From a virus, in the IMG/VR virus record IMGVR_UViG_3300024415_000652, positions 1 through 43,754 of that record: 43,754 nucleotides of DNA; one strand, given 5' to 3'. The notes beneath the pieces were generated by a model. That model saw only the letters and a list, made by a program, of their open reading frames with translations, was not told the DNA's origin and did no database searches. Each line of letters opens with the position of its first letter. Positions within the stretch are counted from its first letter, which is position 1. Of this stretch, positions 3,735 through 41,173 are shown in pieces. Position numbers and translations under genes: made by a program.

Positions 3735-3983
3735 ATGAAGATAACGGATAAAAAACTATCTTTTAACGAAAAACTATATAAATACGGAGTGTTATACTTC
3801 GGAACTGGATTGATGATGGTATCACCATTCTTTATAGATTCAGTTTATGGAAAAGTAGGAATGTTAGTTGCACTTTCATTGATTACTATTCAAACACAAA
3901 AAACAAAACAATATAACCTATCCCTACTAAATGCAGTAGGGTTTATGGGTTATCTTTATTCACTTATAACAAGTTTACAATGA
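3735..3983 (+). CDS. Small membrane protein
   Basis: An 82-residue protein with about three hydrophobic segments (near residues 17-32, 38-50 and 62-80) and a basic N-terminus. No family recognised. It starts 2 nt after the epimerase stop and its stop overlaps the next start (ATGA), so it is translated within the operon. Confidence 0.7.
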   Translation: MKITDKKLSFNEKLYKYGVLYFGTGLMMVSPFFIDSVYGKVGMLVALSLITIQTQKTKQYNLSLLNAVGFMGYLYSLITSLQ

Positions 3984-4768
3984 AAAAGTTATTACTATTT
4001 ACATTTATTATAATCCTAAGTTCGTTTGGAGAGATTACTGCTTGGGGTAAAATTGGACATCGAACTGTTGGTGAGATTGCTGAAAGACATCTTAAACCTG
4101 AAGTTAAACAAAAGGTTTACGAATTGTTAGATGGTGAATCACTTGCATCAGTATCAACTTGGGCTGATGAGATGAGAAGTAATCCAGAGTTCGATAAGTA
4201 TTCAACTTGGCATTATGTAAATCTACCATTAGATAAAGATTATGATGATGTTTCTCACATTGGACCAAATGTAGTTAAGATGATTAACACAGCTATTCCA
4301 ATTTTGGAATCACCAATGGCAGAGAAATCAGTAAAACAATTTTGGTTGAAGTATTTAGTACATATGGTAGGTGATGTTCACCAACCACTTCACACTGGTA
4401 GAGAAGAAGATTGGGGTGGAAACAAAATTGATGTTTACTTCAAAGGTAGAAAGGATGCTGAGAGTTTAACTAACTTACATGATTTATGGGATGCTGGATT
4501 GATTGATGATTTTAAAATGTCTCATTCAGATTTATCTACTCATCTAATTAACAAATATGGTTCGATGCCTGTTGAACAACGAAAAGCAAAAGATTGGGCA
4601 AATGAATCACATCAATTCGTACCAAAGATATATGAAACAAAAGAAGGTTCATATCTTTCATACGATTATGTTTATGAGAATTTTCCAATTGTGGAACAAA
4701 GGTTATATGAAGCAGGAATCAGATTGGCAAATCTTTTAAACAATATATTTAGTGAGCAAGTTAATTAA
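3980..4768 (+). CDS. Secreted S1/P1-type zinc nuclease
   Basis: A 262-residue protein with a signal peptide cleaved before Trp22; in this family the mature N-terminal Trp is itself a zinc ligand. All nine ligands of the trinuclear zinc site can be matched: Trp22, His27, Asp63, His78, His128, Asp132, His138, His167 and Asp171. Length agrees with the family. S1/P1 enzymes cut single-stranded DNA or RNA and remove 3'-phosphates. The signal peptide puts it in the periplasm or outside the cell, so it would not act on cytoplasmic host DNA before lysis. It might destroy extracellular or periplasmic nucleic acid or scavenge phosphate and nucleosides (inference). The start overlaps the preceding stop. 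Confidence 0.93.
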   Translation: MKKLLLFTFIIILSSFGEITAWGKIGHRTVGEIAERHLKPEVKQKVYELLDGESLASVSTWADEMRSNPEFDKYSTWHYVNLPLDKDYDDVSHIGPNVVKMINTAIPILESPMAEKSVKQFWLKYLVHMVGDVHQPLHTGREEDWGGNKIDVYFKGRKDAESLTNLHDLWDAGLIDDFKMSHSDLSTHLINKYGSMPVEQRKAKDWANESHQFVPKIYETKEGSYLSYDYVYENFPIVEQRLYEAGIRLANLLNNIFSEQVN

Positions 4769-8149: not shown

Positions 8150-8427
8150 GTTTATTAGTAGGGTTATGTTCAATTATAGTATTACTTGGATTTACATTTA
8201 TACTAACGTATTTATTTGAATATACACACGAATACCCAATGGCATTAGTTGGGATTATGATGTTTGGTGATATGTTATTAGCTGGAACTTGGTATTTAAT
8301 TGGAATGGAAATTGGTGTAGAATCAGAACAATCATTCAAAAGAGGTATTGCACTAGCATTTGCATTTATGTCATTTGGTAGAGCATTGATATTCTTAGTT
8401 AATGCTAAAAAGAAAGGTTATCTATAA
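8146..8427 (+). CDS. Three-helix membrane protein
   Basis: 93 residues with three hydrophobic segments (about 2-24, 30-50 and 66-86) and a Lys-rich C-terminus. The stop shares a base with the next start. No recognised family. Confidence 0.65.
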   Translation: MSLLVGLCSIIVLLGFTFILTYLFEYTHEYPMALVGIMMFGDMLLAGTWYLIGMEIGVESEQSFKRGIALAFAFMSFGRALIFLVNAKKKGYL

Positions 8428-9011
8428 TGAAGAACTTGATTGTAGTTGGACATCCTAATCAGAAATCCTTTTGTTATAATGGTATTATGAAAACCATTAA
8501 AAGAGAGTTACAAAAGCATGATGAGGAGATTAAAATAATTGATTTATATAGAGATGAATTTCATTCATCCGATAGAAAGGCACTAATTAAGGGTTACCAA
8601 AAATTGGTAACTTGGTCTGATAGAATCTATTTTGTATCACCAGTGTGGTGGTTCCGATTAACACCAAGAATGGAAGTATTCTTTGATGAAGTACTTACAC
8701 CTGGATTTGCATATAAGTTTGTTCCTTTGTTTGGACACTATGCTTATCCAAAACCATTTTTGAAAGATAAGAAAGTTAGAACGTATATTACACATGGGGC
8801 ACCAATGTTACCTGTTGTTACGTTATATCTAAACTCAGTTAAATTGAGATTAGTAATGGGTGTGTACACATTTGTATTTGGTTGGAACATTAATAGATGG
8901 AGAAAAACAAAACAATTTTGGTCTGTACCATTTGTAGATAAACATAAAAGAAGAAAATATCTACAAAGTGTAAAAAAAGATGTTAGAAAAGATTTAAAAT
9001 TTGAGATTTAA
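8427..9011 (+). CDS. NAD(P)H oxidoreductase, flavodoxin-like fold (NQO/KefF type)
   Basis: 194 residues. VVGHPNQKSFC near 6-16 binds the flavin phosphate; FVSPVWWFRLTP (69-80) and FFDEVLTPGFAY (85-96) are family hallmarks of the Flavodoxin_2 group (quinone reductases, KefF). It would use NAD(P)H to reduce quinones or other small acceptors in the cytoplasm. Its role here is open; redox partnering with the bilin reductase is possible but unsupported. Starts and stops overlap both neighbours. Confidence 0.85.
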   Translation: MKNLIVVGHPNQKSFCYNGIMKTIKRELQKHDEEIKIIDLYRDEFHSSDRKALIKGYQKLVTWSDRIYFVSPVWWFRLTPRMEVFFDEVLTPGFAYKFVPLFGHYAYPKPFLKDKKVRTYITHGAPMLPVVTLYLNSVKLRLVMGVYTFVFGWNINRWRKTKQFWSVPFVDKHKRRKYLQSVKKDVRKDLKFEI

Positions 9012-11226: not shown

Positions 11227-11745
11227 ATGAAACCATTAAAAGAAGCAACACACGATAAACATAAAGAAGCTGAGAATATGCTATTCAATAAGAAAATGTT
11301 TAAAGGAGAATTAAACAAAGAAGAGTATGGATGGTATCTTCGTTCTCAGTTTAATATTTTTAAAACTATTGAAGATAACTTTGAACTTCCACATAAAGGA
11401 TTAAGTAGAGTTGAAGCAGTAGCATTTGATTTAATGTCTTTGGGTGTTAATGAATTAGTTTGTGATGAAGCAACGAGAGATTATTTAGAATATCTAAAAG
11501 GATTATCACAAGAGAATGCCAACGCTCATATCTATTTGAACTACTTAGCAATTATGTTTGGTGGTCAAATGATGAAAAAGAATACACCAGGTTCTGGTAA
11601 AATGTATGATTTTGAAAATATGAGAGAATCTATGGAATCAGTAAGAGCTATTCAAAAAGATGAATGGGCTGATGAAGTAAATAAAGGTTTCGATTTTATG
11701 ATAAAGATTTTTAAAAACTTAGAAGGATGTCTTACTATAAACTAA
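11227..11745 (+). CDS. Heme oxygenase
   Basis: 172 residues. LKEATHDKHKEAEN (4-17) aligns with the proximal helix of heme oxygenases, His12 being the heme ligand. HIYLNYLAIMFGGQMMKK (101-118) is the distal helix with its Gly-Gly-Gln kink. The family splits heme with oxygen and electrons (ferredoxin in cyanobacteria and their phages) into biliverdin, CO and iron. Shorter than the usual 210-240 residues but with both heme helices. The bilin reductase gene starts 19 nt before its end, so the two are translationally coupled and biliverdin can pass to the next enzyme. Start ATG 11227 follows an A/T-rich leader. Confidence 0.88.
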   Translation: MKPLKEATHDKHKEAENMLFNKKMFKGELNKEEYGWYLRSQFNIFKTIEDNFELPHKGLSRVEAVAFDLMSLGVNELVCDEATRDYLEYLKGLSQENANAHIYLNYLAIMFGGQMMKKNTPGSGKMYDFENMRESMESVRAIQKDEWADEVNKGFDFMIKIFKNLEGCLTIN

Positions 11746-12404
11746 AAGATAGAATATTTCACCATTCGGAGAAGTTTAAAGCATTGATTGAAGCACAAGA
11801 TGGTGTAGAGTTAATGGAAACTGATGATTATGGTTGGGAGAATTATCGTTATGAAAATGATAGATTCAGATTAGCGCATGTTGAAAGATATTCTCATATG
11901 GGATTAGAAGTTGTACACATAACTTGTTTTCCAAGAGAGTGTTCTAAGATGCCTGTTTTTGGATTTGATGTAGTTGGATATCAAAACGATGAGAAACAAA
12001 TGTCTAAGATTAGTGGAGTGTTTATGGATTGGTCACCAGTTATGTATGAAGAGAAGTGGCATGATACCCAATGGAATAAAGATAGAAAGTTACCAGTTTG
12101 GGCAACTGTATTCTCAAAAGATTTCATAGCAGTAAGACCTACTGAAGATGAATATGAAAAAATATTTGAAGTTGGATTCGATGCATTTGAAAGATGGTTA
12201 GATAAATTAAACTCAGATGAAGATTTAACCGATAATGTGAATGATATTGAGGAGATTATTAAGAATCAAAACACTTATTGTGAACACCAAGCTTCTAATA
12301 AAAGAACCTTTGGAGCACTAAAAGCAAATATTGGAGAGGAAAAAGCAAAGTATTTTATGGAAGAAGTACTATTTCCAAAAATAAAAACTGACAATTTGTC
12401 ATAA
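11727..12404 (+). CDS. Ferredoxin-dependent bilin reductase (PcyA/PebS/PcyX family)
   Basis: 225 residues, family length. VVHITCFPRECSKMPVFGFD (62-81) aligns with the PcyA segment holding catalytic His88 and Asp105; here they are His64 and Asp81. MDWSP (100-104) matches the A-D-[LF]-[ST]-P strand. YCEHQASNKRTFGALKANIG (184-203) and EEVLFP (212-217) match the conserved C-terminal helix and LFP end. The family reduces biliverdin to phycobilins with ferredoxin electrons. His64 fits PcyA- or PcyX-like enzymes better than PebS, but the product cannot be fixed from sequence. Overlapped with heme oxygenase. A bilin pathway in a phage whose promoters look Bacteroidota is unexpected. Confidence 0.85.
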   Translation: MSYYKLKDRIFHHSEKFKALIEAQDGVELMETDDYGWENYRYENDRFRLAHVERYSHMGLEVVHITCFPRECSKMPVFGFDVVGYQNDEKQMSKISGVFMDWSPVMYEEKWHDTQWNKDRKLPVWATVFSKDFIAVRPTEDEYEKIFEVGFDAFERWLDKLNSDEDLTDNVNDIEEIIKNQNTYCEHQASNKRTFGALKANIGEEKAKYFMEEVLFPKIKTDNLS

Positions 12405-12436
12405 TTTGGAATTGTGGAATAAATTTCGTATATTAG
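12405..12436 (+). promoter_or_regulatory. Promoter, TTTG-N20-TATATTAG, apparently leaderless
   Basis: TTTG at 12405-12408 and TATATTAG at 12429-12436, spacing 20 nt. The ATG of the next gene (12443) is only 7 nt past the -7 box, where transcription should begin, so the mRNA would be leaderless or nearly so. Drives 12443 and probably groES-groEL. Confidence 0.75.
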
Positions 12437-12716: not shown

Positions 12717-13007
12717 ATGGCAAACATAGGTAAACCTTTAGCAGATAGGGTTCTTTTAAAATTAGAAGATGTATCTGAATCAAAATCAAGTGGTGGGATT
12801 ATACTTAACACAACCACACAAACCATTCAAACAGCTGAAGTAGTTGAAGTATCCAACGGATTTGTTGGACAGACTGGTGATATTATTCAATTAAATGTTA
12901 AGAAGGGTGATAAAGTTCTTATCAATAACGGAGCCGGACAAAAGGTTAAGTTAGATGGAAACGATTATTACTTAGTTAGAGAATCAGAAATTTTAATGAT
13001 AGTATAA
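12717..13007 (+). CDS. groES: Co-chaperonin GroES
   Basis: 96 residues, full length. KPLADRVLLKLED at the start, the mobile loop SKSSGGIIL (about 22-30) that binds GroEL, and the GDKVLINNGAGQKVKLDGNDYY roof and barrel strands are typical. Caps the GroEL chamber. Directly upstream of groEL with a 3-nt gap. Confidence 0.95.
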   Translation: MANIGKPLADRVLLKLEDVSESKSSGGIILNTTTQTIQTAEVVEVSNGFVGQTGDIIQLNVKKGDKVLINNGAGQKVKLDGNDYYLVRESEILMIV

Positions 13008-13010
13008 GTT

Positions 13011-14618
13011 ATGGAGAATAAACAAATCAAATTTTCATCCAGCTCAAGAGAAGCTCTTAAAGCTGGATTAGATACTTTAGCAGATGCAGTTAAAGTAACA
13101 TTAGGACCTGCTGGTAGAAATGTTCTACTACAAAAGGGTAACGGAGCACATATCACCAAAGATGGTGTGAGTGTAGCAAAAGAAGTACAATTAGAAAATC
13201 CTTATATGAATATGGGTGTTCAGTTGGTAAAAGAAGTATCACAAAAAACAGCTGATGAAGCTGGTGATGGTACAACTACTGCAACTGTATTAGCACAAGC
13301 TATCGCTAAGAAAGGATTTGAAATGGTAGAAGCTGGAACAAATCCTGTTTACCTTAAAAGAGGTATGGATAAAGCTGTGGAAGTTGTAGTATCTGAATTA
13401 GATAAACAATCAGTTAAAGTAGGTGATAAGGTAGAACAAATTGCTACTATCTCAGCAAATGGTGATGAGAACATTGGTAAACTTATCGCTGATGCATTTG
13501 AGAAAGTTGGTAAGGATGGTGTAATCACAGTTGAAGAATCAAAAGGTATTGAAACATCTATGGAAATTGTAGATGGTATGCAATTCGATAAAGGATTTCT
13601 TTCAACACACTTTGCTACCAATCAAGAAAAGATGATAGCTGAGATTGAAAATCCATACATTCTATTATATGATGGTAGAATCTCAAATATGAATGATATC
13701 CTTAAACTATTAGAAGGAGTAGCACAATCATCTAAACCATTAGTTATTATCGCTGATGATGTAGAAGGTGAAGTATTGGGTACTTTAGTAGTTAATAAAC
13801 TAAGAGGAGCTCTTAATGTATGTGCAGTTAAAGCACCAGCATTTGGTGATAGAAAGAAAGAGATGATGAAAGATATTGCTACTGTAACTGGTGGTACTTT
13901 TATTCAACCTGAAATTGGACAGAAGTTAGAAGATGTTACAATGGATATGTTGGGTGTAGCTGAAAAGATTGTTGTTGGTAAAGATAATACCACAATTATA
14001 AACGGAGCAGGTTCATCTGATGAGATTGGTGAAAGAGTTAACGCTATCAAAACTCAGATTGAAGAATCTAAATCAGATTATGAAAGAGAGAAGATGCAAG
14101 AGAGATTAGCTAAGTTAGCTGGTGGTGTTGCAGTTCTTTACATTGGGGCTGGTTCTGAAGTAGAACTAAAAGAAAAGAAAGATAGAGTTGATGATGCACT
14201 ACAAGCTACTAAATCAGCAATTGAAGAAGGAGTAGTTGAAGGTGGTGGTATCGCTTTACTTCGTACTATCAAATCATTAAATGGTTTAGAAACCGAAGAT
14301 GCTTGGGAAACTGATGGAGTTGAAGTAATTAGAGAAGCTTTATCAGCACCAATTATTCAAATTTTGGAAAACGCTGGACAAGATTATACAACAGTTTTAG
14401 AAAAACTTTTTGAAGATAGTAAAATAGGTTACAATGCTAGAACTGAAAAGTTTGTAGATATGTTTGCTGATGGAGTTATTGACCCAAAGAAAGTTACTCG
14501 ATGTGCAATTCAAAACGCAAGTTCAGTTGTTGGAATGATTTTAACTACCGAATGTATGATAGTTAATAAACCAAATACTGAAGAAAAAGTAGCACAAAAA
14601 CAAATGTTAATGGGATAA
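13011..14618 (+). CDS. groEL: Chaperonin GroEL
   Basis: 535 residues, full length. [23 protein letters not shown], the ATP-site GDGTTTATV (85-93), and the equatorial, intermediate and apical domains are all present. The usual C-terminal Gly-Gly-Met repeats are missing; the protein ends in QKQMLMG. That tail lies inside the folding chamber and affects capacity and timing, so the phage version may suit a large phage substrate (inference). Gene order groES-groEL is as in bacteria. A hairpin follows the stop directly. Confidence 0.97.
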
Positions 14619-19847: not shown

Positions 19848-20337
19848 ACCAAACTTAACTCCAAAAGAGATAATCCAAATGGGTTCATTTGGTGGAACTT
19901 ATTTTCATCCAACTGATAGAAATATCGATATAGATGTGAATGAATTCCCTCCAGAATGGTTTGTAGGGTTGCCTACGGAGTTCTACTACTCTAAGAAGTA
20001 TATTCGTAAGGTGAACTATTTTAAAACCAAATGCGGACAATCTCAAGAAGAGTGGGAAAAGATGGGTTGGATTAACCCAATAGACCCAAGAGGTTGGTTC
20101 CAATGGTATTGTAGATATTATATGGGTAGAAGATGTGAAGATGATGATAGGCAGATTCGTAGATGGTTGAACTTCTCAGGTCCAAATGGAAGATGGAGAA
20201 ACTATATCTACACACAAATCCATAAAAGAGGTGGTGATATCTCAGATGAGAGTTATTCTTTGGGAGCTAGACAATCACTACTTCATTGGGCTTATAAAGT
20301 AAATGAAAAAGATTACGAAATTTGGAAAAAAAAGTAA
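19828..20337 (+). CDS. Conserved hypothetical with DPRGWFQWYCRYYMGRR motif
   Basis: 169 residues, Trp- and Tyr-rich. LTPKEIIQMGSFGG at the start, PPEWF, then WINPIDPRGWFQWYCRY and a C-terminal QSLLHWAYKVNEKDY match a conserved protein I recall from phages and bacteria with no assigned function. The same pattern argues it is genuine. ATG 19828 or the next codon could be the start. Confidence 0.75.
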   Translation: MMQKLFKPNLTPKEIIQMGSFGGTYFHPTDRNIDIDVNEFPPEWFVGLPTEFYYSKKYIRKVNYFKTKCGQSQEEWEKMGWINPIDPRGWFQWYCRYYMGRRCEDDDRQIRRWLNFSGPNGRWRNYIYTQIHKRGGDISDESYSLGARQSLLHWAYKVNEKDYEIWKKK

Positions 20338-20345
20338 GAAAAAGC

Positions 20346-20376
20346 TTGCATGATTCAAAATTTTTACATATATTAG
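20346..20376 (+). promoter_or_regulatory. Leader-class promoter, TTG-N20-TATATTAG
   Basis: TTG at 20346-20348 and TATATTAG at 20369-20376, 20 nt apart, then ACC and TGTAATTGAG. The -33 surroundings differ (GCATGATTC) but the geometry is the same. Confidence 0.78.
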
Positions 20377-20379
20377 ACC

Positions 20380-20430
20380 TGTAATTGAGTGGGGATAAAA
20401 CCCCAATGTTAAACCTTAAAATTTAAAAAA
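20380..20430 (+). promoter_or_regulatory. Repeated 5' leader with hairpin, copy 3
   Basis: TGTAATTGAG, then TGGGG (20390-20394) perfectly paired with CCCCA (20401-20405) around ATAAAA, then GTTAAACCTTAAAA. The ATG lies 25 nt past the stem. The pairing is perfect where copy 1 has a G-U pair. Confidence 0.7.
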
Positions 20431-20706
20431 ATGACTTATTCAGAATTATCAACGATGACCATTGAAGATTTGAGAAATCTAAACTCTATGGTAATCGAAA
20501 CAATCAAATCAAAAAAATCGTTATTAGCATTAGAGAAGAAAGATTCTCTTTACGTTGGTGCTATCGTTTCAGTTGACCATCCAAAGATGGCTGGACATGA
20601 ATTGAAAGTAACTAAAATTAATAGAACTAAAGCTGTTTGTGAATTAATAAATGGTATGGGTTCTTACAACGTTCCCCTAAATATGATTAACATTATAAAC
20701 GGATAA
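20431..20706 (+). CDS. Small KOW-like protein, unknown
   Basis: 91 residues. Helical first half (SELSTMTIEDLRNLNSMV), then a small beta domain (VGAIVSVDHPKMAGHELKVT) resembling KOW/SH3-like folds seen in short phage proteins. Function unknown. First gene behind leader copy 3. Confidence 0.65.
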   Translation: MTYSELSTMTIEDLRNLNSMVIETIKSKKSLLALEKKDSLYVGAIVSVDHPKMAGHELKVTKINRTKAVCELINGMGSYNVPLNMINIING

Positions 20707-20709
20707 CCT

Positions 20710-20943
20710 ATGGCTAGATACAAAACTTACAAAATTGAAAAAACACCTACTGAAAAATTTACTGAGATGGTAACTATCTCTAAGAAAGTAAAAGGTAAAC
20801 TTTTTGAAAAGAAGTTTATCTCAGAAGAAAAAGCAAAAACTTGGATAGAATTCGGAGCTGCACACAAACTCATTAACAATGGGGCTAAGAAAGTAAAGAA
20901 TGAATTGGGTTCAATTGGAATATTAACTGAAACTGCATGGTAA
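20710..20943 (+). CDS. Small basic protein, unknown
   Basis: 77 residues, Lys-rich. Segments KKVKGKLFEKKFISEEKAKT and NNGAKKVKNELGS. No recognised family. Overlaps the next gene by 7 nt. Confidence 0.6.
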   Translation: MARYKTYKIEKTPTEKFTEMVTISKKVKGKLFEKKFISEEKAKTWIEFGAAHKLINNGAKKVKNELGSIGILTETAW

Positions 20944-21293
20944 AATTTGACCCAAATAATGAACTTTCCGATGAGGAACTAAATAAGTTGGGTGAAGAAA
21001 ACTTCGATGACTTCTTAGATTACTTAGACCAAAAAGCTGAACATCTAAAACAATTCACCAAACCATTGAGTTCATATCATACTAAGAGATACGCATCTAT
21101 TTCAGCGGCATCGCAAGGTAAAGAACTTTCTAAGGAAGATATAAAGAAAGCTGGTGAGATTGGTAAAAAGAATGAAGATGCAGCAGCTGCTAAGATAGCA
21201 GATAGATTGGCTGAATATGAAAAGAATCATCCTAAGTATAAAGATGAGGGTATAAAGAATATCAAAACTAATAGGTCTCAATGGTTCGATTAG
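20937..21293 (+). CDS. Helical charged protein, unknown
   Basis: 118 residues, acidic start (DEELNKLGEENFDDFLDYL), then Lys/Ala-rich helices. No family recognised. Coupled to both neighbours. Confidence 0.6.
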   Translation: MVKFDPNNELSDEELNKLGEENFDDFLDYLDQKAEHLKQFTKPLSSYHTKRYASISAASQGKELSKEDIKKAGEIGKKNEDAAAAKIADRLAEYEKNHPKYKDEGIKNIKTNRSQWFD

Positions 21294-21448
21294 TAAATTG
21301 GTTTATCGATTTATTTAAACCCAAACCTAAGATAAGAAAGTTTGAAGGTAGTATAGTTGATAATTGTTGGACTTGTGGATGTGGGGCTTTAAACGCAGCT
21401 TATAGAAGTACTTGTGGAAATTGTAATAAAGAAATAGATGAAAGTTAG
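21281..21448 (+). CDS. 55-residue zinc-ribbon-like protein
   Basis: ATG 21281 overlaps the previous gene. Basic first half, then CWTCGCG ... TCGNC, two knuckles of Cys that look like a zinc ribbon (residues 29-49). The stop overlaps the next gene. Function unknown, possibly nucleic-acid binding. Confidence 0.6.
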   Translation: MVRLVNWFIDLFKPKPKIRKFEGSIVDNCWTCGCGALNAAYRSTCGNCNKEIDES

Positions 21449-21629
21449 TTGGTATTATAGAGAGATGGGTAGTAGAAATAAAAAGACTGGAAAGTTATCC
21501 TACTACAATGTAAAAGTAACTGATTATAAAATATCAGATTGTGAATGTAAAGCTAGAGAGTTCAGACCTCACTCTGCTTGTAAACATATGAAGAGGTTAC
21601 ATGAAAAGTTAACACATTTAAGTATATAA
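21438..21629 (+). CDS. SWIM zinc-finger-like protein
   Basis: 63 residues. Cys35-x-Cys37, a ten-residue spacer, then Cys48-x-His50 fits the SWIM zinc-finger pattern CxC...CxH, usually involved in DNA or protein binding. A single small SWIM unit on its own is odd. Overlaps the zinc-ribbon gene by 11 nt. Confidence 0.65.
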   Translation: MKVSWYYREMGSRNKKTGKLSYYNVKVTDYKISDCECKAREFRPHSACKHMKRLHEKLTHLSI

Positions 21630-21630
21630 T

Positions 21631-22203
21631 ATGGGAGTAGATATTTCGGGTAGAAACCCAATACACAGAACACCAAAGCATGAATACCCAAATTGGAATG
21701 AGATTTCTGATAAGGAAAAAGATGATTGGTTTGAGATGGATGAGAAATGGCAGAAAGAAAATCCTGGTGATTACTTTAGAAGTAATTGGTGGGGATGGAG
21801 ACCAATTGTTCAACTTTGTGAAACAGTAGATAACATCTACGGATTAGGTATTAATTTTGAGAATTGGGGTTCCAATGATGGAGCTGGTTTAGAAACTCAA
21901 GAAGAGTGTGATAAACTTGCTGATGGATTAGAAAGATTTACATCTAAAATTGATTGGGTTGATGATGAAGATTGGATGGGTATCTTTACTGAATGTTGGA
22001 GTACGTTAGAAGGTGGTTTCGTTGATAATAGTGAAAAAGAAATTAAGGAACTAAATTCACAATACGAATGGGGTGATGTGATTAGAGAAGTAATTATGTT
22101 ACCAAGTGGTAAAGTTGTAGAACCTGCTCACAAAACTTACAAATGTAGAATTGATACATTCATTAACTTCCTAAGAGAGTGTGGTGGATTTAGTATTTGG
22201 TAA
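21631..22203 (+). CDS. Conserved phage-like hypothetical protein
   Basis: 190 residues. GVDISGRNPI at the start, FRSNWWGWRPIVQLCE in the middle and FINFLRECGGFSIW at the end match a hypothetical protein I recall from several phages and prophages. Trp-rich, acidic. Function unknown. One nt from both neighbours. Confidence 0.75.
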   Translation: MGVDISGRNPIHRTPKHEYPNWNEISDKEKDDWFEMDEKWQKENPGDYFRSNWWGWRPIVQLCETVDNIYGLGINFENWGSNDGAGLETQEECDKLADGLERFTSKIDWVDDEDWMGIFTECWSTLEGGFVDNSEKEIKELNSQYEWGDVIREVIMLPSGKVVEPAHKTYKCRIDTFINFLRECGGFSIW

Positions 22204-22575
22204 ATGATTTATAGAAGTAGAAAACTTATTAGACCCGAACATCTAAATTCAAGAGGTACACTATTTGGTGGTGAGCTTCTAAAATGGATTGATGAAGAAG
22301 CAGCTATATTCGCTATCTGTCAATTGGGTGAAAAGAATATTGTAACGAAAGCAATGTCTGAGATTGATTTCCAAAGTTCTCCTCAGAATGGAGATATCAT
22401 TGAGATTGGTTGTGGGTTACATAGTATAGGTAATACATCTATAAACGTAAGTGTTACAGTTAGAGATAAAAATTCTAAGAACAATATAATTAAAGTAGAG
22501 AAAATTACATTTGTTCTTTTGGATGAAAATGGGAAACCAAAAAAACATAATATAAAAGACCCATTGGATATATGA
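22204..22575 (+). CDS. Acyl-CoA thioesterase, hot-dog fold (YciA/ACOT-like)
   Basis: 123 residues, one hot-dog domain. Asn15, Gly18, LFGGELLKWIDEEAA (20-34, with Asp30) and AMSEIDFQSSPQNGDIIEI (50-68) match the YciA/BACH acyl-CoA hydrolases. The family splits CoA thioesters to free acid and CoA. It might adjust acyl pools used by the ACP/AMP-ligase module at 39-41 kb (inference). Overlaps the GT2 gene by 4 nt. Confidence 0.85.
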   Translation: MIYRSRKLIRPEHLNSRGTLFGGELLKWIDEEAAIFAICQLGEKNIVTKAMSEIDFQSSPQNGDIIEIGCGLHSIGNTSINVSVTVRDKNSKNNIIKVEKITFVLLDENGKPKKHNIKDPLDI

Positions 22576-23570
22576 AAATATCAGTTATAGTAAGGACTTG
22601 TAATAGACCTGATTTTTTAGAAGAAGCTCTAGCTTCTATACAATTACAAACTCATAAAGATTGGGAAGTCATTGTGTTTGATGATGGTGATACATCTGAA
22701 AACCAATCTATTGTAAATGAGTTCAAAGATAGAACTGATAATTTAGTAACCTACATAAATTCAGGTAAACAATATCACTTATTCAAAGAAAGTTGGAAGA
22801 TAGCTCCAAAGATATCACAAGGTGAAATTATGATTCGTTTGGATGATGATGATATTTTGGATTCAGAATGTTTAGAATATGTGGATAAAGTATTTTCAGA
22901 AACACCTGATTTAGATTTTGCTTATGGAAGTTCTGTTTTATTTAATGGAGATGAGTTGACAGATATAATGGAAACTAAAACTCCAATTGATTATCCAAAA
23001 ACTAAATCAACTTGGTCTGGTTATATAGAAGGATATCCATATAATAAACCTTGGAGTCATACACATGATTACTTCGATGAACCAAGACATCCATCTTCGA
23101 TAATACATTCATCTAAATTAAATCAGTTTTGTATTTTTCATCCTTATGTAATGAGAACCAAATCAATTCTTCCAGTGTTAGATAAAATAAATATGACTTC
23201 TAACTTTGTTGATGACATAGAATTTTTAGGTTCTTTGGATAATTTAGGATTAGGTTACAATACTTTAAATAAAGTTTTAACTTATGTTAGAAAGCATGAT
23301 AAAGGTAGTGTAACTGATAAAGATAGGAAGATAAATGGTGTAAACTTATGGGATGATATCTTCAGAGTTAGAGATGAAGTTGACTTTCTGAGACCAGATG
23401 GTTTAACTTTTAAATCAAAAATTATAAAAATTAAATTTGATAGTAATTATACTCTCACAATAGATGTGGAATTAAAGGAAAAATTTAAAAAAACTTTAAG
23501 TAATATTAACAAAATAGTAAATCCTAAAATCAATCATTTCAATGATAAGTTTGATTGGAGGATGTTCTAA
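22572..23570 (+). CDS. Glycosyltransferase family 2
   Basis: 332 residues, GT-A fold. SVIVRTCNRPDFLEEALASI starts the nucleotide-sugar domain; DDG near 37 and RLDDDD (89-94) supply the metal-binding Asp residues. The remainder, with charged helices, defines the acceptor. Cytoplasmic or membrane-associated; donor and acceptor unknown. Stands outside the main glycan cluster. Confidence 0.87.
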   Translation: MKISVIVRTCNRPDFLEEALASIQLQTHKDWEVIVFDDGDTSENQSIVNEFKDRTDNLVTYINSGKQYHLFKESWKIAPKISQGEIMIRLDDDDILDSECLEYVDKVFSETPDLDFAYGSSVLFNGDELTDIMETKTPIDYPKTKSTWSGYIEGYPYNKPWSHTHDYFDEPRHPSSIIHSSKLNQFCIFHPYVMRTKSILPVLDKINMTSNFVDDIEFLGSLDNLGLGYNTLNKVLTYVRKHDKGSVTDKDRKINGVNLWDDIFRVRDEVDFLRPDGLTFKSKIIKIKFDSNYTLTIDVELKEKFKKTLSNINKIVNPKINHFNDKFDWRMF

Positions 23571-25237: not shown

Positions 25238-25618
25238 ATGAAAAAACTATTTTTAATTGTAACACCATTTTTCTTCAGTTCAATATTGAAAGCTCAATCA
25301 ATTGATGGAGAATCATTTAAATTAAGTACAACGGATGGTATTTCATCATTTGTATTTGAGGACCAAAACTCAGATGGAAGATTCATAGGTGGTCAGTTGG
25401 TAAAAAATTATTTATCACTTAAATTAAATTCTGAAGAGTTTGTAACCTTTCAATCAAATCTTAAAAAAGTATCCAAAAAATCAGAATATACAATAGAAAC
25501 TGAAACTTATGCTTTGGATAAGTATAGCTGGGATGATAGTCGTACAATCTATGTAAGAAGTGGTAATAAAATAGGTGAGATTAAAAAGAGTGAAGTAAAA
25601 TCAATATTAAAATTGTAA
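25238..25618 (+). CDS. Secreted protein with signal peptide, unknown
   Basis: 126 residues. Residues 1-19 form a signal peptide ending KAQ, typical of Bacteroidota; the rest is Ser/Lys-rich with alternating strands (TDGISSFVFEDQNSDGRFIG). No family recognised. Follows tRNA-Glu by 19 nt, so may share the tRNA transcript. Confidence 0.65.
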   Translation: MKKLFLIVTPFFFSSILKAQSIDGESFKLSTTDGISSFVFEDQNSDGRFIGGQLVKNYLSLKLNSEEFVTFQSNLKKVSKKSEYTIETETYALDKYSWDDSRTIYVRSGNKIGEIKKSEVKSILKL

Positions 25619-31648: not shown

Positions 31649-32293
31649 ATGAAAAAAATACACTTCGGTTGTGGCTGGAACTTCTTAGAAGGTTGGGATA
31701 ATACAGATATGGTAATTCCACCTAACTTAACCAAAGAACAAGAACAACGCATCAAAATAATAGATGTTACTCAGACTCTACCTTATGAATCTGATAGTGT
31801 AGACTTTATATTTCACGAACATATGATTGAACATATCGATGAAGTCGATGGTTACTCTTTCCTAAATGAATGTTATCGTATATTAAAACCAGGTGGTGTA
31901 ATGAGAATATCATGTCCATCTATTGATGGTGCTATGGATGTATATCATAATTGGGATAATGTTAGTGATGAGTGGAAGCAAGAATCTGGTCTAGTAACTA
32001 AAGCTAGATTTATTAATCATTTTATTTATTATGAAACTGCTGGATATCAAGGTAAAAAGTTTGAAGCTGATGGTAGTATTAAGATGGTAAATAATCCAAA
32101 TTATTGGCATAAGTATATGTATGATAGAGAGGACTTTGATTATAAGTTAAAGTACATTGGATTTAGTGATGTAAACTTTGTTAATAAACATGAAAGTCAA
32201 TACTCAGAATTAAAAGGTTTAGAACGAAGGTTTGGTGGTAAATTTAAATTATGGCCAATCGAAAGTGATATAACATTAGAAACTAAAAAGTAA
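31649..32293 (+). CDS. SAM-dependent methyltransferase, class I
   Basis: 214 residues. HFGCGWNFLEGWDNTD (5-20) is the SAM-binding loop, DFIFHEHMIEHIDE the acidic strand, and ECYRILKPGGVMRI the classic LKPGG turn of type-11 methyltransferases. These often methylate sugars or small molecules; it begins the glycan cluster, so O-methylation of a sugar is plausible. Confidence 0.82.
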   Translation: MKKIHFGCGWNFLEGWDNTDMVIPPNLTKEQEQRIKIIDVTQTLPYESDSVDFIFHEHMIEHIDEVDGYSFLNECYRILKPGGVMRISCPSIDGAMDVYHNWDNVSDEWKQESGLVTKARFINHFIYYETAGYQGKKFEADGSIKMVNNPNYWHKYMYDREDFDYKLKYIGFSDVNFVNKHESQYSELKGLERRFGGKFKLWPIESDITLETKK

Positions 32294-32301
32294 ATTAAAC
32301 T

Positions 32302-32709
32302 ATGAGAAAATCGTTATGGATAGCTTTAGGGTTATTTTTCGTAGGCTGTGCCTACATCGGAGTACTTCTTCCTGGAGTACCAACCACATTTTTTGTAATA
32401 CTAGCTGCATGGGCATTTAGTAAATCATCTGAGAAATTCAATAAGTGGTTACACGAACATCCATTGTTCGGAAAGTATCTTACCAATTGGGAAACCAAAA
32501 AAGTATATCCAACTAGAGGTAGATGGGCTATGGTAGGAGTTATGTGTATTTCTTTAATTTCAATGTTCTTTACAGTTCCTCTTAGGGTTGTAGGGTACGC
32601 TGCTATTACATTTGTACTGATTATAATTTGGGCATTTAGATACCCTGGTTCAGTTGAAGAATATGATAAACGAATTAAAGAAGGAAAGAAAATTGGCTGG
32701 TTCAAATAA
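32302..32709 (+). CDS. DUF454 (YbaN-like) inner-membrane protein
   Basis: 135 residues with two or three membrane helices. GVLLPGVPTTFFVILAAWAF (20-39) and HPLFGKYLTNWETKKVYP are the family signature. Function of DUF454 unknown. The next gene starts inside it. Confidence 0.85.
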   Translation: MRKSLWIALGLFFVGCAYIGVLLPGVPTTFFVILAAWAFSKSSEKFNKWLHEHPLFGKYLTNWETKKVYPTRGRWAMVGVMCISLISMFFTVPLRVVGYAAITFVLIIIWAFRYPGSVEEYDKRIKEGKKIGWFK

Positions 32710-33679
32710 AATACCAAATATCAATCCAACTAATATAGGATTTGGAATAAAAACGTATGTACCAACTATTGATTATTATTTAGATTTAATCAAAAGTGGT
32801 ACTAACTTTAAATTCATCAGATGTAATCACGGATTATTAGACCCTTTTGCTAGGTCTATGAGTAATACCGAATTCAATAAATTAGTTTCCAATAAAGAAT
32901 ATAGAAAGATAGCAGAAAAAGTAGCTGAGTATCATACTCATCATCATCCTCAACTTAGAAGATGGCATGGTGATATGAATGAGAAGTATATTCAGTTACT
33001 AACTTTCTTTGTACAATTTTTTAATGATGAGATTCTTAATGAAGATAGTGAGTTTGATTTTGGAATATCGTTATGTAATGGAATTTGGAGAGCATCTGAT
33101 AATGTAGAACATAAAGATGTAATAAGTAGAGGTAACGCATTTCTATCTTTAAGTCAAAATTTAGATAAGATATATTTTCATGGAGGTTTAGCTAGACACT
33201 ATGCAGTTACAGGTGAAATATTTCAATTATTTGATTTACTTAATGAATTAGATTATGATGTTATATTTGTGGGAGCTCCTTACTTTAAGATAGCTGAAGC
33301 TGTATATAACATAAAGAACTTTATACATATTCCTATATCTTATACAAATGCTATTAAAAACTTCGATGAAACAATAGTTACTCTAAAAAATACAATTAAG
33401 AAAAAAGAAACAATCATATTCAATTCTTGTGGACATGATTTAACTTTTTACTTAGCTGATAAGATTAGAGGTATTGATGTATCTCAGATGGATGTTGGTA
33501 GAGCATTGGATTGGAATATTAATAAAAGCTTTGTAAGGAACGAACATATTGAAGCGTTTAATAACTTACCAAATGGTATTTACAAACCTTGGGAACAATA
33601 TGGTGAGAATCCTTGGTTAACTTGGGCAAGACCTACTCATATGAATGTAGTAAAACGATTGAGGCAAAACAATGAATAA
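32663..33679 (+). CDS. Possible GT-D/DUF1792-like glycosyltransferase
   Basis: 338 residues from ATG 32663; TTG 32693 with an AAGGAAAG leader is an alternative start giving less overlap with DUF454. YDVIFVGAPYFK and IIFNSCGHDLTFYLADKI followed by SQMDVGRALDW resemble the GT-D fold pattern in which a late Ser-x-Gly...Asp-x-Gly binds the donor. The match is only moderate. Position in the glycan cluster supports glycan work. Confidence 0.5.
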   Translation: MINELKKERKLAGSNKIPNINPTNIGFGIKTYVPTIDYYLDLIKSGTNFKFIRCNHGLLDPFARSMSNTEFNKLVSNKEYRKIAEKVAEYHTHHHPQLRRWHGDMNEKYIQLLTFFVQFFNDEILNEDSEFDFGISLCNGIWRASDNVEHKDVISRGNAFLSLSQNLDKIYFHGGLARHYAVTGEIFQLFDLLNELDYDVIFVGAPYFKIAEAVYNIKNFIHIPISYTNAIKNFDETIVTLKNTIKKKETIIFNSCGHDLTFYLADKIRGIDVSQMDVGRALDWNINKSFVRNEHIEAFNNLPNGIYKPWEQYGENPWLTWARPTHMNVVKRLRQNNE

Positions 33680-34289
33680 AGTATTTGGTATTGGAATGAA
33701 CAAAACAGGTACTACAAGTCTCAAATTTGAGTTTATGAGATTGAGATATAATGTAGGTGACCAAAGAGAGATTGAACAAAAGTTTTGGGCTTGGAAAAAT
33801 AAAAGATGGGATGTTATAATTGATTATTGTAAAAGATATGATTTCTTTCAGGACTTTCCATTTTCATTTCCAAATACCTACAAAGAAATGGATAAAGTAT
33901 TTGATGCTAAGTTTATATTAACAATAAGAAACTCAGCTGAAGAATGGTATGATTCATTAGTTAGATTTCAAACTAAAACTGGAGCATTTAATTCAAATGG
34001 AAAATTACCAAATGCTCAAAATCTGAAAGAAGCAATTTATATCAGAAAAGGTTGGATGTACGATACTCATGTGAGTTTGTTTGATGTAACTGATGATGAT
34101 TTATATAACAAAGAAGTATTAATAAAAACATATAACAAATATAACGAAGAGGTTATTGATTATTTTGGAGATAGGGAAGATTTTTTAGTTTTAAATTTAG
34201 CAGAAAAAGATTCTTATAATAAGTTCTTAGAATTTATGGGAGAAGAAAGTCCTTATAGTACATTCATGCATAAAAACAAATCTAAATAA
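33672..34289 (+). CDS. Sulfotransferase (PAPS-dependent), first copy
   Basis: 205 residues. GIGMNKTGTTSLKFEF (6-21) is the PAPS 5'-phosphosulfate loop with Lys11; KFILTIRNSAEEWYDSL (80-96) supplies the 3'-phosphate Arg86 and Ser88. Sulfotransf_4-like. It would sulfate a sugar or other acceptor. Another copy lies at 37963. Overlaps the preceding gene by 8 nt. Confidence 0.85.
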   Translation: MNKVFGIGMNKTGTTSLKFEFMRLRYNVGDQREIEQKFWAWKNKRWDVIIDYCKRYDFFQDFPFSFPNTYKEMDKVFDAKFILTIRNSAEEWYDSLVRFQTKTGAFNSNGKLPNAQNLKEAIYIRKGWMYDTHVSLFDVTDDDLYNKEVLIKTYNKYNEEVIDYFGDREDFLVLNLAEKDSYNKFLEFMGEESPYSTFMHKNKSK

Positions 34290-34290
34290 A

Positions 34291-34322
34291 TTTGTAATTC
34301 TCAATTATTTTTCGTATATTTG
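34291..34322 (+). promoter_or_regulatory. Host-consensus promoter TTTG-N20-TATATTTG
   Basis: TTTG at 34291-34294 and TATATTTG at 34315-34322, 20 nt apart; canonical Bacteroidota -7 box like the one at 27027. It drives the glycan genes from 34346. Confidence 0.8.
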
Positions 34323-34345
34323 TATAAATAAATTAGGTAAAAAGT

Positions 34346-34999
34346 ATGGCAAACGGAATTTACAAAGTAACCGATGAGTTTGAAGAAAAGTTAGCACATT
34401 ACACTGGTGCTAAATACGCAGTAACATTAGATAATATGAGTAATGCTTTATTTTTAGCATTGTATTATGAAAATCATATTAAAAAAAGTATTAAAGGAGG
34501 TTGGGTATCATGTCTATCCAGAACATATCCATCTGTACCTTGTGAAATCATTCACGCTGGATTAAAAATAAAATGGATACCTGTTGAAGGTAAAACTATT
34601 AAAGGTGCATACCAATTAGAGAATAGTAATGTATGGGATTCAGCTCTATCATTTACAGCTGATATGTACCAAAGTGGTACACATATGTGTGTATCATTTA
34701 CAGGTCCTTACAAACATTTTAAATTATCGAAAGGTGGAGCAATTCTAACTGATGATTATGAAGCATATCTTTGGTTTAGAAGAGCAAGATATAGTGGTAG
34801 AAGAGAAGTATCTTATCACGAAGATAACTTTGATATGATTGGATGGAACTTTTATATGATGCCTGAACTTGCAGCTAGAGGTTTATTACTTATGGGTCAA
34901 TTCTATAATATGGATGGAACTAAAAAACATAATGAGGATTTGGAGTTACCATATCCTGACTTAAGTAAATTTGATGTCTATACTAAGGTAGATTTATGA
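34346..34999 (+). CDS. Truncated DegT/DnrJ/EryC1-like aminotransferase
   Basis: 217 residues, homologous to the first half to two-thirds of PLP sugar aminotransferases (about 370). FEEKLAHYTGAKYAVTLDN, NVWDSALSF with Asp98, and SFTGPYKHFKLSKGGAILT (117-135) are family motifs; Lys123, seven residues before the GG pair, is in the position of the PLP Schiff-base Lys. The C-terminal domain is missing, so it may need a partner, be compact, or no longer aminate. Likely acts on a 4-keto sugar such as one made by the enzyme at 5499. Confidence 0.7.
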   Translation: MANGIYKVTDEFEEKLAHYTGAKYAVTLDNMSNALFLALYYENHIKKSIKGGWVSCLSRTYPSVPCEIIHAGLKIKWIPVEGKTIKGAYQLENSNVWDSALSFTADMYQSGTHMCVSFTGPYKHFKLSKGGAILTDDYEAYLWFRRARYSGRREVSYHEDNFDMIGWNFYMMPELAARGLLLMGQFYNMDGTKKHNEDLELPYPDLSKFDVYTKVDL

Positions 35000-35673
35000 T
35001 AGGTATAATGCAACCATATTTCTTTCCGTACATTGGATATTTTCAACTTATCCAAGCGGTAGATTCATATGTTAATTTAGACCATGTATCTTTTATGAAA
35101 CGGAGTTATATGGTTAGAAACACATTAAAGAATGATGTTAACATTTCTATATGTGTTCAAGGTGCTAGCCAAAATAGAACCTGTGATGAGGTGTGTACTT
35201 TATCCGATAGTAAATGGTTCGATAAGTTTTATAAAACATTAGAACATCAATATAAGAAGGAACCTTTTTATGATGTGATTATGAAAGAGATTATTGAACC
35301 TTGGAAAGAGAATGTATTATTAAAAAATGAGATTTCAATATCAGATTTTAATTTCAGTGCTATTATTAGAATATGTAACTACTTAGATATTGATACTGAA
35401 TTTCATACAACAAGTGTTGGTATAACTGAAAGAAAATTGAATGAAGGAATACAAGATATTACTAAACACTTCAATGATAACCACTACATTAATGCAATTG
35501 GTGGACAGAGTTTGTATTATAGAAATGATTTTGAATCGGTTGGTTTAAAATTAAACTTTATACAAATGAAAGATTTAGATGTGGATAACCCATATCTATC
35601 TATTTTAGATTTATTATTCAGATATGATAAAGAACATCTAAAAAAACAATTAAATAAATACGAATTAATATGA
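34996..35673 (+). CDS. WbqC-like protein
   Basis: 225 residues. QPYFFPYIGYFQLIQAVDSYVNLD at the start is the WbqC family signature; that family occurs in O-antigen and S-layer glycan clusters and is thought to modify aminosugars. Role not fixed. Overlaps the DegT-like gene by 4 nt and the next gene by 4 nt. Confidence 0.88.
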   Translation: MIGIMQPYFFPYIGYFQLIQAVDSYVNLDHVSFMKRSYMVRNTLKNDVNISICVQGASQNRTCDEVCTLSDSKWFDKFYKTLEHQYKKEPFYDVIMKEIIEPWKENVLLKNEISISDFNFSAIIRICNYLDIDTEFHTTSVGITERKLNEGIQDITKHFNDNHYINAIGGQSLYYRNDFESVGLKLNFIQMKDLDVDNPYLSILDLLFRYDKEHLKKQLNKYELI

Positions 35674-36344
35674 AAAATAAAGTTATAATTTTTGGTATAT
35701 TGGATACAGCTGAGTTAGCTCATTATTATTTAACTAATGATTCTGAATATGAAGTTGTAGCATTTACAGTTAATAAAGAATATATGAAAGGTGATACATT
35801 TACACCAATAAATTCTGATAAATCATATCCAGTTGTACCATTTGAAGAGTTAGAAAATACATATCCACCATCTGATTATTTATTCTTCGCACCAATGACT
35901 GGTGTAAAAATGAATAATGTTCGTAAAAGAATTTACGAAGAAGGTAAGGAAAAGGGATATGAGTATATTTCTTATGTATCTTCTAAGGCAACTGTTTGTG
36001 ATAACAAAATAGGTGAGAATTGTTTTATCTTAGAAGATAATACACTTCAACCATTTACTGAAATTGGTAACAATGTTGTTATGTGGAGTGGTAATCATAT
36101 CGGTCATCATGGTAAAATCGAAGACCATGTATTCTTTACATCGCATGTTGTACTTTCAGGACATTGTCTTGTTAAGGAACGAGCTTGGATTGGTGTAAAC
36201 GCAACCATAAGAGATTATATTACAATAGGAGAGGGTTCATTAATTGGTATGGGAGCTTTGGTAACAAAGAATACCGAAGATGATGGATTATATATGGGAG
36301 CTCCTGCTAAATTACAAAAAGCACCAGCAAGTAGAGTTTATTAA
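35670..36344 (+). CDS. NeuD-like hexapeptide sugar acyltransferase
   Basis: 224 residues. A Rossmann-like N-terminus (VIIFGILDTAELAHYYL) binds the sugar nucleotide; residues about 100-215 form left-handed beta-helix coils, with the catalytic His region GNHIGHHGKIEDHVFFTSH (near 147-165). Transfers acetyl or similar acyl from CoA to an amino sugar. Follows WbqC in one operon; matches the DegT enzyme's product. Confidence 0.83.
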   Translation: MKNKVIIFGILDTAELAHYYLTNDSEYEVVAFTVNKEYMKGDTFTPINSDKSYPVVPFEELENTYPPSDYLFFAPMTGVKMNNVRKRIYEEGKEKGYEYISYVSSKATVCDNKIGENCFILEDNTLQPFTEIGNNVVMWSGNHIGHHGKIEDHVFFTSHVVLSGHCLVKERAWIGVNATIRDYITIGEGSLIGMGALVTKNTEDDGLYMGAPAKLQKAPASRVY

Positions 36345-36345
36345 T

Positions 36346-37248
36346 ATGTGGGTAGATAGAAAAAATATATTTAACGATGAACATTCACAAGTTCCAATAA
36401 TTGATATCATTGGAGATAGGTGGAGAATCTATTACTCTACTAGATTAAATGGTAAGAGTGTACCTATGTGGATTGAGGTTGACCCAAAGAACCCATCTAC
36501 AATATTAGGTAAATCAGATAAACCCATTTTAGAATTAGGTAAGCCAGGTTCATTTGATGTTGCTGGAGTAATGCCAACGGATATTATAAATCTAAATGGT
36601 TTAAAATATATGTATTACATTGGATGGACTCAGAGAATGGATGTTCCATATCATAATACGATAGGATTAGCAGTTAGTAGTGATAATGGTGATAGTTGGA
36701 AAAAGGTATCTAAGGGTAGTGTATTTGGTTCAGATGATATTGAAACTGGATATACTGGTACGATTGATGTAGTGGAGGGTGATAATATGTATTTTGGTTA
36801 TTACCTATCTTGTAGGGATTGGAAAGAGTTTGATGGGAGAATGGAACCTATATATGATATCAAAATAGCTCAATCTAAAAATGGATTAGGAAATTGGAAA
36901 CCACTAAATATATCAGCTGTATCTTTGAAAGAAGGTGAAGGTGGTATATCAAAAGCATCGGTATTAAATATTGAAGGTAGATATTATATGTGGTATTCTA
37001 CAAGAATGGAATCTGATTATAGAGAGAATTCTGATAGAAGTTATAGGATTAAATGTTCAGTTAGTGATGATTTAATTAATTGGGAAGAATCAGAAAAATT
37101 TGGATTAGATATAGATATTAATAGTGAGTGGGATAATATTATGGTAGAATACCCAGAAGTATTTGAATATGATAACGATATTCACTTATTATATAATGGT
37201 AATAAATTTGGAGAAACAGGAATAGGATATGCTAGACTTAAAAAATGA
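36346..37248 (+). CDS. Five-bladed beta-propeller glycosidase-like protein
   Basis: 300 residues from ATG 36346; the frame is open to 36280 but that is the tail of the preceding gene. Repeated blades with RWRIYYSTR, YMYYIGWT, NMYFGYYLSCRD, YYMWYSTRM and IHLLYNG are typical of GH43/GH32/GH130-like folds. It carries no signal peptide, so it acts in the cytoplasm or is released at lysis. It might trim or transfer sugars; specificity unknown. Confidence 0.75.
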   Translation: MWVDRKNIFNDEHSQVPIIDIIGDRWRIYYSTRLNGKSVPMWIEVDPKNPSTILGKSDKPILELGKPGSFDVAGVMPTDIINLNGLKYMYYIGWTQRMDVPYHNTIGLAVSSDNGDSWKKVSKGSVFGSDDIETGYTGTIDVVEGDNMYFGYYLSCRDWKEFDGRMEPIYDIKIAQSKNGLGNWKPLNISAVSLKEGEGGISKASVLNIEGRYYMWYSTRMESDYRENSDRSYRIKCSVSDDLINWEESEKFGLDIDINSEWDNIMVEYPEVFEYDNDIHLLYNGNKFGETGIGYARLKK

Positions 37249-37966
37249 TGGAATAACAATATTGAAGGGATTCTTTGAACCAGAAACCATTGAGGAACTG
37301 AGAGAATCAGCTAAAAATGTATTCAGAATACAATTCAAACATTTTGGATATTCTGATGAAACTTTTGAAGAATCTATGGTTAGGTTATTTGAAGAACAAT
37401 TTGATACATTTCAAAATTGTGGTAAGTTGATTCAATCTGGATTGATTGAGTTATACAATATAGCTTATCACGATAAGTTAATAGAACAACTAAAGTTATT
37501 TGGGTTAGATAATCCATTAGTATGTACACGTCCAGTTCTTTTCTTTAATCATCCAAAGTTAGCTAAAAAAGAACAATACTACAAAACACCAATGCATCAA
37601 GATTATCCATCAATGTTAGCATCATCTGATTCGGTGGTAGTTTGGATTCCACTTATGGATGTATCCAAAGAAAATGGTTCAGTTATATTTTATCCACAAT
37701 CTCATTTATTAGGTCCTTTGAAAAATGGAGTAGATGAAAGTGGATTCGCAGAAGTTGAATTTAATAAAGATGATTACGATAAAATTCAACCATCATTAAA
37801 AATGGGAGATATAGTTGTATTTTCTACTTTATTAGTACACGAATCGGGAACTATACTAAATGATGATATTAGATGGTCTTGTCATTTTAGATATACTAAT
37901 TTAAATGATAAGGATTTTATTGAAAGAGGATTTCCTTCACCATACCTTTATAAATCAATAGCATGA
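37229..37966 (+). CDS. Phytanoyl-CoA dioxygenase family (PhyH) oxygenase
   Basis: 245 residues. MHQDYPSM supplies His123-x-Asp125 and LLVHESG His204, the iron facial triad; Arg215 should bind 2-oxoglutarate. ENGSVIFYPQSHLLG is a PhyH hallmark. Uses oxygen and 2-oxoglutarate to hydroxylate a small molecule, here probably an acyl or sugar group of the glycan. Overlaps its neighbours by 4-20 nt. Confidence 0.85.
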   Translation: MLDLKNDGITILKGFFEPETIEELRESAKNVFRIQFKHFGYSDETFEESMVRLFEEQFDTFQNCGKLIQSGLIELYNIAYHDKLIEQLKLFGLDNPLVCTRPVLFFNHPKLAKKEQYYKTPMHQDYPSMLASSDSVVVWIPLMDVSKENGSVIFYPQSHLLGPLKNGVDESGFAEVEFNKDDYDKIQPSLKMGDIVVFSTLLVHESGTILNDDIRWSCHFRYTNLNDKDFIERGFPSPYLYKSIA

Positions 37967-41156: not shown

Positions 41157-41173
41157 TACAAATATAGTAGTAG

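Follow-up and report, generated by a model that had tools for sequence, protein, structure and literature searches.

Why would a phage whose host does not photosynthesize carry genes for making a bilin? The reason for bilin cassettes in phages of non-photosynthetic hosts has been called "still enigmatic" (PMC11480375), and the question is raised again by a gene pair in the virus record IMGVR_UViG_3300024415_000652, of which we analyzed a stretch of 43,754 nucleotides, referred to here as the window. The pair consists of a heme oxygenase (HO) gene followed by a gene for a ferredoxin-dependent bilin reductase (FDBR). Phage HO-FDBR pairs with non-photosynthetic hosts are already known from the pelagiphage Mosig and from phage CB_2 (PMC11480375). 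What is new here is a separate clade of FDBRs of the Glu type, a partner clade of HOs that lacks the canonical distal residues, and the probable residence of both in jumbo phages of Bacteroidota. Taking the locus as a whole, the explanation that we favor, with about even confidence, is a two-gene heme-to-bilin cassette of a Bacteroidota jumbo phage by which heme would be dismantled for its iron.

The HO and FDBR genes overlap and are maintained

The HO gene (172 aa) occupies positions 11227 to 11745 and the FDBR gene (225 aa) positions 11727 to 12404, both on the plus strand, so that their reading frames share 19 nt (11727 to 11745, plus strand), which is consistent with translational coupling. 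A preliminary description, made from the sequence alone, had given both open reading frames and their overlap exactly there, and the residues that it named are all present: His12 and GGQ at 112-114 in the HO, and His64, Asp81, YCEHQ at 184-188 and LFP at 215-217 in the FDBR. Its residue account nevertheless overlooked Glu53 of the FDBR, which is diagnostic of PcyA, and the absence from the HO of the distal Asp and Arg. Likewise, its interpretation of the locus as an HO with a PcyA-type FDBR in a phage stands, but the HO is not canonical and the pair is not rare.

A promoter-like site of the Bacteroidota type (12405 to 12436, plus strand) separates the FDBR gene from its downstream neighbor, which starts at 12443 and is followed by groES and groEL. 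This site bounds the HO-FDBR unit on its downstream side. The groES and groEL genes, at 12717-14618 of the window, lie 3' of the pair in close relatives as well, and the GroEL of the window is closest to copies from Bacteroides phages (about 55%).

Compared with five relatives, the FDBR gene has dN/dS values of 0.06-0.25 and the HO gene values of 0.15-0.32. These low values indicate that both genes encode maintained proteins, and both are under purifying selection. Copies of the pair do sit in differing gene neighborhoods among the 57 loci sampled, as would be expected of a recently acquired and decaying passenger that has no function in the phage. This explanation is extremely unlikely, since selection on the genes is strongly purifying and the FDBR active sites are intact across a deep clade, and the dN/dS values largely refute it.

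The window is a fragment of a jumbo phage with a probable Bacteroidota host

The first 18.0 kb of the window (from position 1) align with the final 21 kb of G002, an IMG/VR contig of 252.6 kb, and the part from 28.3 to 43.5 kb matches the first 11.5 kb of the same contig. The approximately 10 kb between the matched parts, which include tRNAs, have no counterpart in G002. This contig encodes a T4-like set of terminase, portal, major head protein, UvsX, DnaB-like helicase and DNA polymerase, and 146 proteins are common to it and a 274-kb contig (G005). It follows that the window represents a piece of a jumbo phage. Elsewhere in the window are a gene for an S1/P1 nuclease with a signal peptide (3980-4768) and a block resembling glycan-modification genes (31649-43475; methyltransferase, sulfotransferase, WbqC, PhyH, hexapeptide transferase and a FabG-like protein) together with IMPDH.

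The preliminary description had proposed a Bacteroidota host, in part because of its promoters. Promoter sites of the form TTTG-N18-22-TATnTTnG do occur in the window, with nine on the gene strand and one on the other, against an expectation of about one. The corresponding counts are 39 and 7 for G002 and 36 and 8 for G005, as against 7 and 10 for phage Mel-JY01 and 0 and 1 for 50 kb of the cyanophage P-SSM4. The Flavobacterium phage immuto also lacks an excess (0 and 1 in 50 kb), so the absence of these promoters is uninformative. Distant members of the clade (L012-L015 and L029) likewise show no excess, the promoters being found in the window's own sub-lineage. Shine-Dalgarno-like sites precede a small fraction of the genes in the window (0.15), G002 (0.14), G005 (0.09) and immuto (0.02), and a larger one in Mel-JY01 (0.37) and P-SSM4 (0.35). 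Grouping the loci according to their FDBR clade gives fractions of 0.16 and 0.06 for the two halves of the clade that holds the window, as against 0.47-0.57 for clades B, C and PcyX; L019 (0.39) and L029 (0.33) are exceptions to this pattern. In addition, G002 encodes at 20180-22900 (minus strand; L165) a SusC/RagA-like TonB-linked protein (TIGR04056, E 1.8e-27, below the curated cut-off), and such a protein is a hallmark of Bacteroidota. The gene lies on the strand opposite to most genes of the phage. Proteins of 1086-1096 aa with weaker similarity to TonB receptors are encoded in G005, G009 and G010.

The neighbors of the portal protein are those of Mel-JY01 (48.5%), immuto (49.2% over 82%) and the Rhodothermus phage RM378. 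Because Mel-JY01, which is listed under Microcystis, is as near in its portal as the Flavobacterium phage, a Bacteroidota host is something that we infer; we regard it as very probable. The earlier host proposal is thus borne out by the promoters, the scarcity of Shine-Dalgarno sites, the SusC/RagA-like protein and the kinship of the portal, and is qualified by the equal nearness of a phage listed under Microcystis.

This nearness is what speaks for a cyanobacterial host, in which the pair would aid light harvesting as proposed for the cyanophage genes pebS and ho1: Mel-JY01 supplies one of the two nearest portals and, among sequenced phages, the closest UvsX (52.5%). However, Mel-JY01 has neither the promoter enrichment nor an FDBR match, and its use of Shine-Dalgarno sites is like that of cyanophages, whereas the large relatives of the window have fractions of 0.09-0.14, enriched Bacteroidota promoters and, in G002, the SusC/RagA-like protein. 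We therefore consider a cyanobacterial host highly unlikely. Mel-JY01 itself (PP395634.1, listed under Microcystis elabens) has 56 proteins in common with G002, another relative of which infects Flavobacterium, and its listed host deserves a check.

The Ala-Gln signal peptides of the preliminary description were also found, in a TonB receptor at 892-2868 (INAQ|T) and in the product of 25238-25618 (KAQ|S). The former is a phage-borne TonB-dependent receptor (PF00593, E 2e-34) that is present in G001 and G002 as well. Uptake of heme by this receptor is conceivable: its best NCBIfam models are those of B12 and heme receptors, though both matches are far below their cut-offs, and it has no His between the FRAP-like and NPNL-like stretches.

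The FDBR has the catalytic triad of PcyA and belongs to a separate clade

In a profile search, the FDBR falls inside PF05996 (Fe_bilin_red) with 77.4 bits against a cut-off of 31 (E 1.7e-21), and not outside this family, the outcome that the preliminary description had named as telling against its reading. The closest solved structures by sequence are PcyX (5owg, E 5e-20) and then PcyA. AlphaFold2 models of both the HO and the FDBR were built from alignments of related phage proteins. The FDBR model (pLDDT 93.0) is an alpha/beta/alpha sandwich, and its best Foldseek match is Nostoc PcyA (2g18; TMq 0.79, E 1e-13). The structure prediction suggested earlier thus returns the solved PcyA fold.

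Residue alignment places Glu53 (codon at 11883 to 11885, plus strand), His64 and Asp81 of the FDBR at E76, H88 and D105 of Synechocystis PcyA, whereas PcyX has an Asp at the first of these positions; the same position is Gln in the E76Q mutant of PcyA (PDB 3i95). With the NCBIfam equivalog model for PcyA (PRK02816), the FDBR scores 89.9 bits, under the cut-off of 206. We then placed it in a tree of 128 FDBR sequences that was computed by a quick search after removal of the Glu/Asp column and rooted at the midpoint; the tree is without CB_2, proteobacterial PcyA and pre-PcyA, and its cyanobacterial references are fragments. The 69 rows of the Asp type (PcyX) form a single clade (SH-aLRT 99). 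The window FDBR sits outside it, in its own clade of the Glu type (n=28, support 96) that under the midpoint root is also apart from cyanobacterial and cyanophage PcyA. Glu53 is conserved in 28/28 rows of this clade, and the Glu/Asp label switches only three times across the whole tree. The phylogeny that the preliminary description had proposed therefore yields a clade of the FDBR's own, and identity with PcyX is ruled out both by Glu53, where PcyX has Asp55, and by this position. Judged by its catalytic triad, the FDBR appears to be of the PcyA type and to represent a separate, unstudied branch.

Glu76 is specific to PcyA and is required for reduction of the 18-vinyl group (PMC10151467, PNAS 2023). 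The FDBR of phage CB_2 was shown to make phycocyanobilin, a product that according to the same study probably reflects the absence of the PcyX residue Asp55 (PMC11480375). Given the Glu53-containing PcyA triad, the role of Glu76 and the product of the CB_2 enzyme, phycocyanobilin is predicted as the product of the window FDBR with reasonable confidence, provided that the pair is active. The phage tree is thereby split between two predicted product types, phycocyanobilin for Glu and phycoerythrobilin for Asp.

The FDBR shares its Glu/His/Asp triad and its fold with cyanobacterial and cyanophage PcyA, but it sits elsewhere in the tree, set off by a branch with 1.1 changes per column, and its identity to them is about 22-27%. 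Furthermore, no HO gene is annotated adjacent to the cyanophage PcyA copies that we read, whereas in the window the HO gene lies directly 5'.

Some loci depart from a single FDBR with Glu or Asp at this position. In L057 (7255-8636) and L086 (7941-9282), tandem FDBRs follow one HO, the first of the Asp type (PcyX-like) and the second of the Glu type, which suggests that one phage may make two bilins. A small FDBR clade (L147, L149, L148, L134 and L144) has Lys at the place of Glu76/Asp55 (KHD), and the clade-B members L039 and L043 have Gln there.

The HO retains its fold and has an altered distal helix

The HO matches PF01126 in a profile search with 53.8 bits against a cut-off of 23 (E 2.9e-14). 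Its AlphaFold2 model (pLDDT 94.8) has HmuO (1iw1; TMq 0.81) as the best Foldseek match, with values of about 0.81-0.84 across HmuO and HO-1, so here too the prediction agrees with the solved fold of the family. Alignment to 5kzl and HO-1 identifies His12 (codon at 11260 to 11262, plus strand) as the proximal heme ligand, corresponding to His25 of HO-1, and this His is present in every aligned row. Fold, proximal His and the GG of the distal helix are shared with human HO-1 and with Corynebacterium HmuO. Unlike these enzymes, the window HO is short (172 aa) and has Asn105, Ala108 and Ile109 (codon of the last at 11551 to 11553, plus strand) in the places of Arg136, Gly139 and Asp140 of HO-1.

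These replacements extend beyond the window. In a tree computed without the distal columns, the HOs paired with the window's FDBR clade likewise group in a single clade (30 rows, support 97). Every one of the 30 has I, L, M or F in the place of Asp140 and Asn in that of Arg136, while 25/30 have Ala in that of Gly139. By comparison, PcyX-associated and other HOs have Asp in 72/77 and Arg in 67/77 at these distal places. The analysis thus exposes a clade of HOs that lacks the residues thought to deliver protons.

The distal hydrogen-bond network through which HO-1 and HmuO deliver protons is built on Asp140 and Arg136. Changes at Gly139 or Asp140 strongly cut the activity of human HO-1, Asp140His being the case covered in PMC7948506. 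Given this loss on mutation, and since the window HO has neither the distal Asp nor the distal Arg, its activity may be reduced, altered or wired in another way; the enzyme may be slow or carry out other chemistry. The uniformity of the replacements within one clade would also fit a change of function, in which a hydrophobic distal pocket serves heme binding or removal, or yields another biliverdin isomer, and the FDBR acts on that product or on biliverdin of the host. We think such a change unlikely, since the fold, His12, the distal GG and the constraint on the gene are kept, and the gene is still coupled to that of the FDBR. Moreover, plant HO-1 lacks both residues, having Ala and His instead with the Ala at the place of Gly139, and is active through another network (PMC7948506). 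It is quite likely that the pair catalyzes the conversion of heme to a reduced bilin.

The HO-FDBR cassette is widespread in viruses

A pattern scan of IMG/VR found at least 575 FDBR relatives among the 599 matches listed and at least 573 HO relatives among the 599 matches listed. Of 120 distinct loci with both genes, 115 have HO and FDBR side by side, and in 106 the two overlap or touch. The same order, HO then FDBR, in at least 115 viral loci marks the window pair as a new branch of a cassette that is already known. None of 50,697 phage records contains a close relative of the pair. A scan of plasmids with patterns found no FDBR relative, and from a scan of genome contigs with two narrow patterns for cellular relatives the sole match was a MAG contig, its FDBR being of the PcyX type; relatives in bacteria may still exist. 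A 335-kb contig of a Neomarinimicrobiota MAG (L088; PBPT01000016.1) has a PcyX-type FDBR and an HO about 1 kb apart with another gene between them, and resembles a phage contig that was assigned to the MAG in binning. In several clade-B loci (L028 6942-7517, L036 6858-7421 and others), a gene for a RyR-domain protein adjoins or overlaps the start of HO.

In the literature that we searched, which was mostly open-access, we found no report of the cassette in Bacteroidota phages, and a paper on Bacteroidota jumbo phages, the moraphages, mentions no heme or bilin gene (PMC12619734). With the present pair, the range of the cassette would come to include phages that infect a further major heterotrophic phylum.

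The pair resembles phage hemO-pcyX, known from Mosig (EXVC030M) and from the marine metagenomic PcyX (5owg), in that the HO gene comes first and overlaps an FDBR gene whose product belongs to the PcyA/PcyX branch and has the His and the Asp, and the host of Mosig is also non-photosynthetic. In contrast, PcyX has Asp in place of Glu53, makes phycoerythrobilin and forms its own clade (support 99); the HO of Mosig keeps the distal Asp and Arg; and Mosig, unlike the relatives of the window, encodes its own ferredoxin. The pair vHemO-vPcyA of the freshwater phage CB_2 (Wegner et al. 2024, PMC11480375) likewise combines a phage HO with an FDBR that lacks the PcyX Asp55, in a non-photosynthetic host. 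Its proposed host differs in being alphaproteobacterial, and its genome carries a 5-ALA synthase gene, valaS (PMC11480375), whereas none was recognized near the window pair.

Possible roles of the pair during infection

We propose that the HO would open heme to give biliverdin IX-alpha, iron and CO, and that the FDBR, made in step with the HO through the overlapping frames, would reduce the biliverdin to phycocyanobilin with reduced ferredoxin or flavodoxin. The host is proposed as the source of this donor because the related contigs searched yielded neither a Fer2 nor a Flavodoxin_1 gene. A candidate donor encoded by the phage, a Flavodoxin_2-type oxidoreductase (8427-9011), is present in several close relatives and was set aside, as it is unlinked to the pair elsewhere. 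The benefit in infection would be iron freed from heme for iron enzymes of the phage, and removal of biliverdin by the FDBR would pull the HO reaction, leaving phycocyanobilin as an end product. Iron enzymes of this kind include the class I ribonucleotide reductase small subunit NrdB, in 9/18 records, with several of the larger relatives among them, and a PhyH-type dioxygenase at 37229-37966 of the window.

Heme dismantling is preferred because phage iron enzymes exist and no phage bilin acceptor was found: profiles of PHY, GAF and phycobiliprotein domains have no match in the 18 records, which comprise 17 phages of this kind and Mosig. Iron-using genes are, however, common in phages, so they give this explanation no particular preference over others. 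We hold it slightly short of even that dismantling of heme for iron is the main benefit.

The conservation of Glu53 bears on a different explanation, in which phycocyanobilin is itself the purpose and would load, or displace biliverdin from, a bacteriophytochrome or other bilin protein of the host and so alter light or redox signaling. Glu53 is kept in all 28 rows although plain disposal of biliverdin should be possible without it, and this suggests that the pigment itself is needed. Expressed in E. coli, the HO and PcyA of CB_2 yielded a functional phytochrome (PMC11480375), and in Bradyrhizobium ORS278 hemO-pcyA-alaS adjoins bphP. On the other hand, the lack of acceptor domains in the phage records counts against this explanation, as does the lack of a conserved neighbor: the 57 loci sampled across all clades share the pair as their only common unit, with no third gene conserved next to it. 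A purpose of this kind is conceivable, though in our view somewhat unlikely. Only tentatively, and with doubt, do we suggest a deep, phage-only bilin branch in which an HO rebuilt with a hydrophobic distal pocket (a new proton route or altered chemistry) and a phycocyanobilin-making FDBR would serve a purpose other than light harvesting in non-photosynthetic Bacteroidota hosts. Culturable Bacteroidota exist (Flavobacterium) and related T4-like phages have been isolated, so that the role of the cassette could become testable.

No ferrochelatase was found. In Mosig (MT647606), the gene at 303-1073 of locus L009 is annotated as a putative ferrochelatase and has no PF00762 match. Its homologs stand directly 5' of HO in clade C, and one of them shows a weak match to 2OG-Fe(II) oxygenases.
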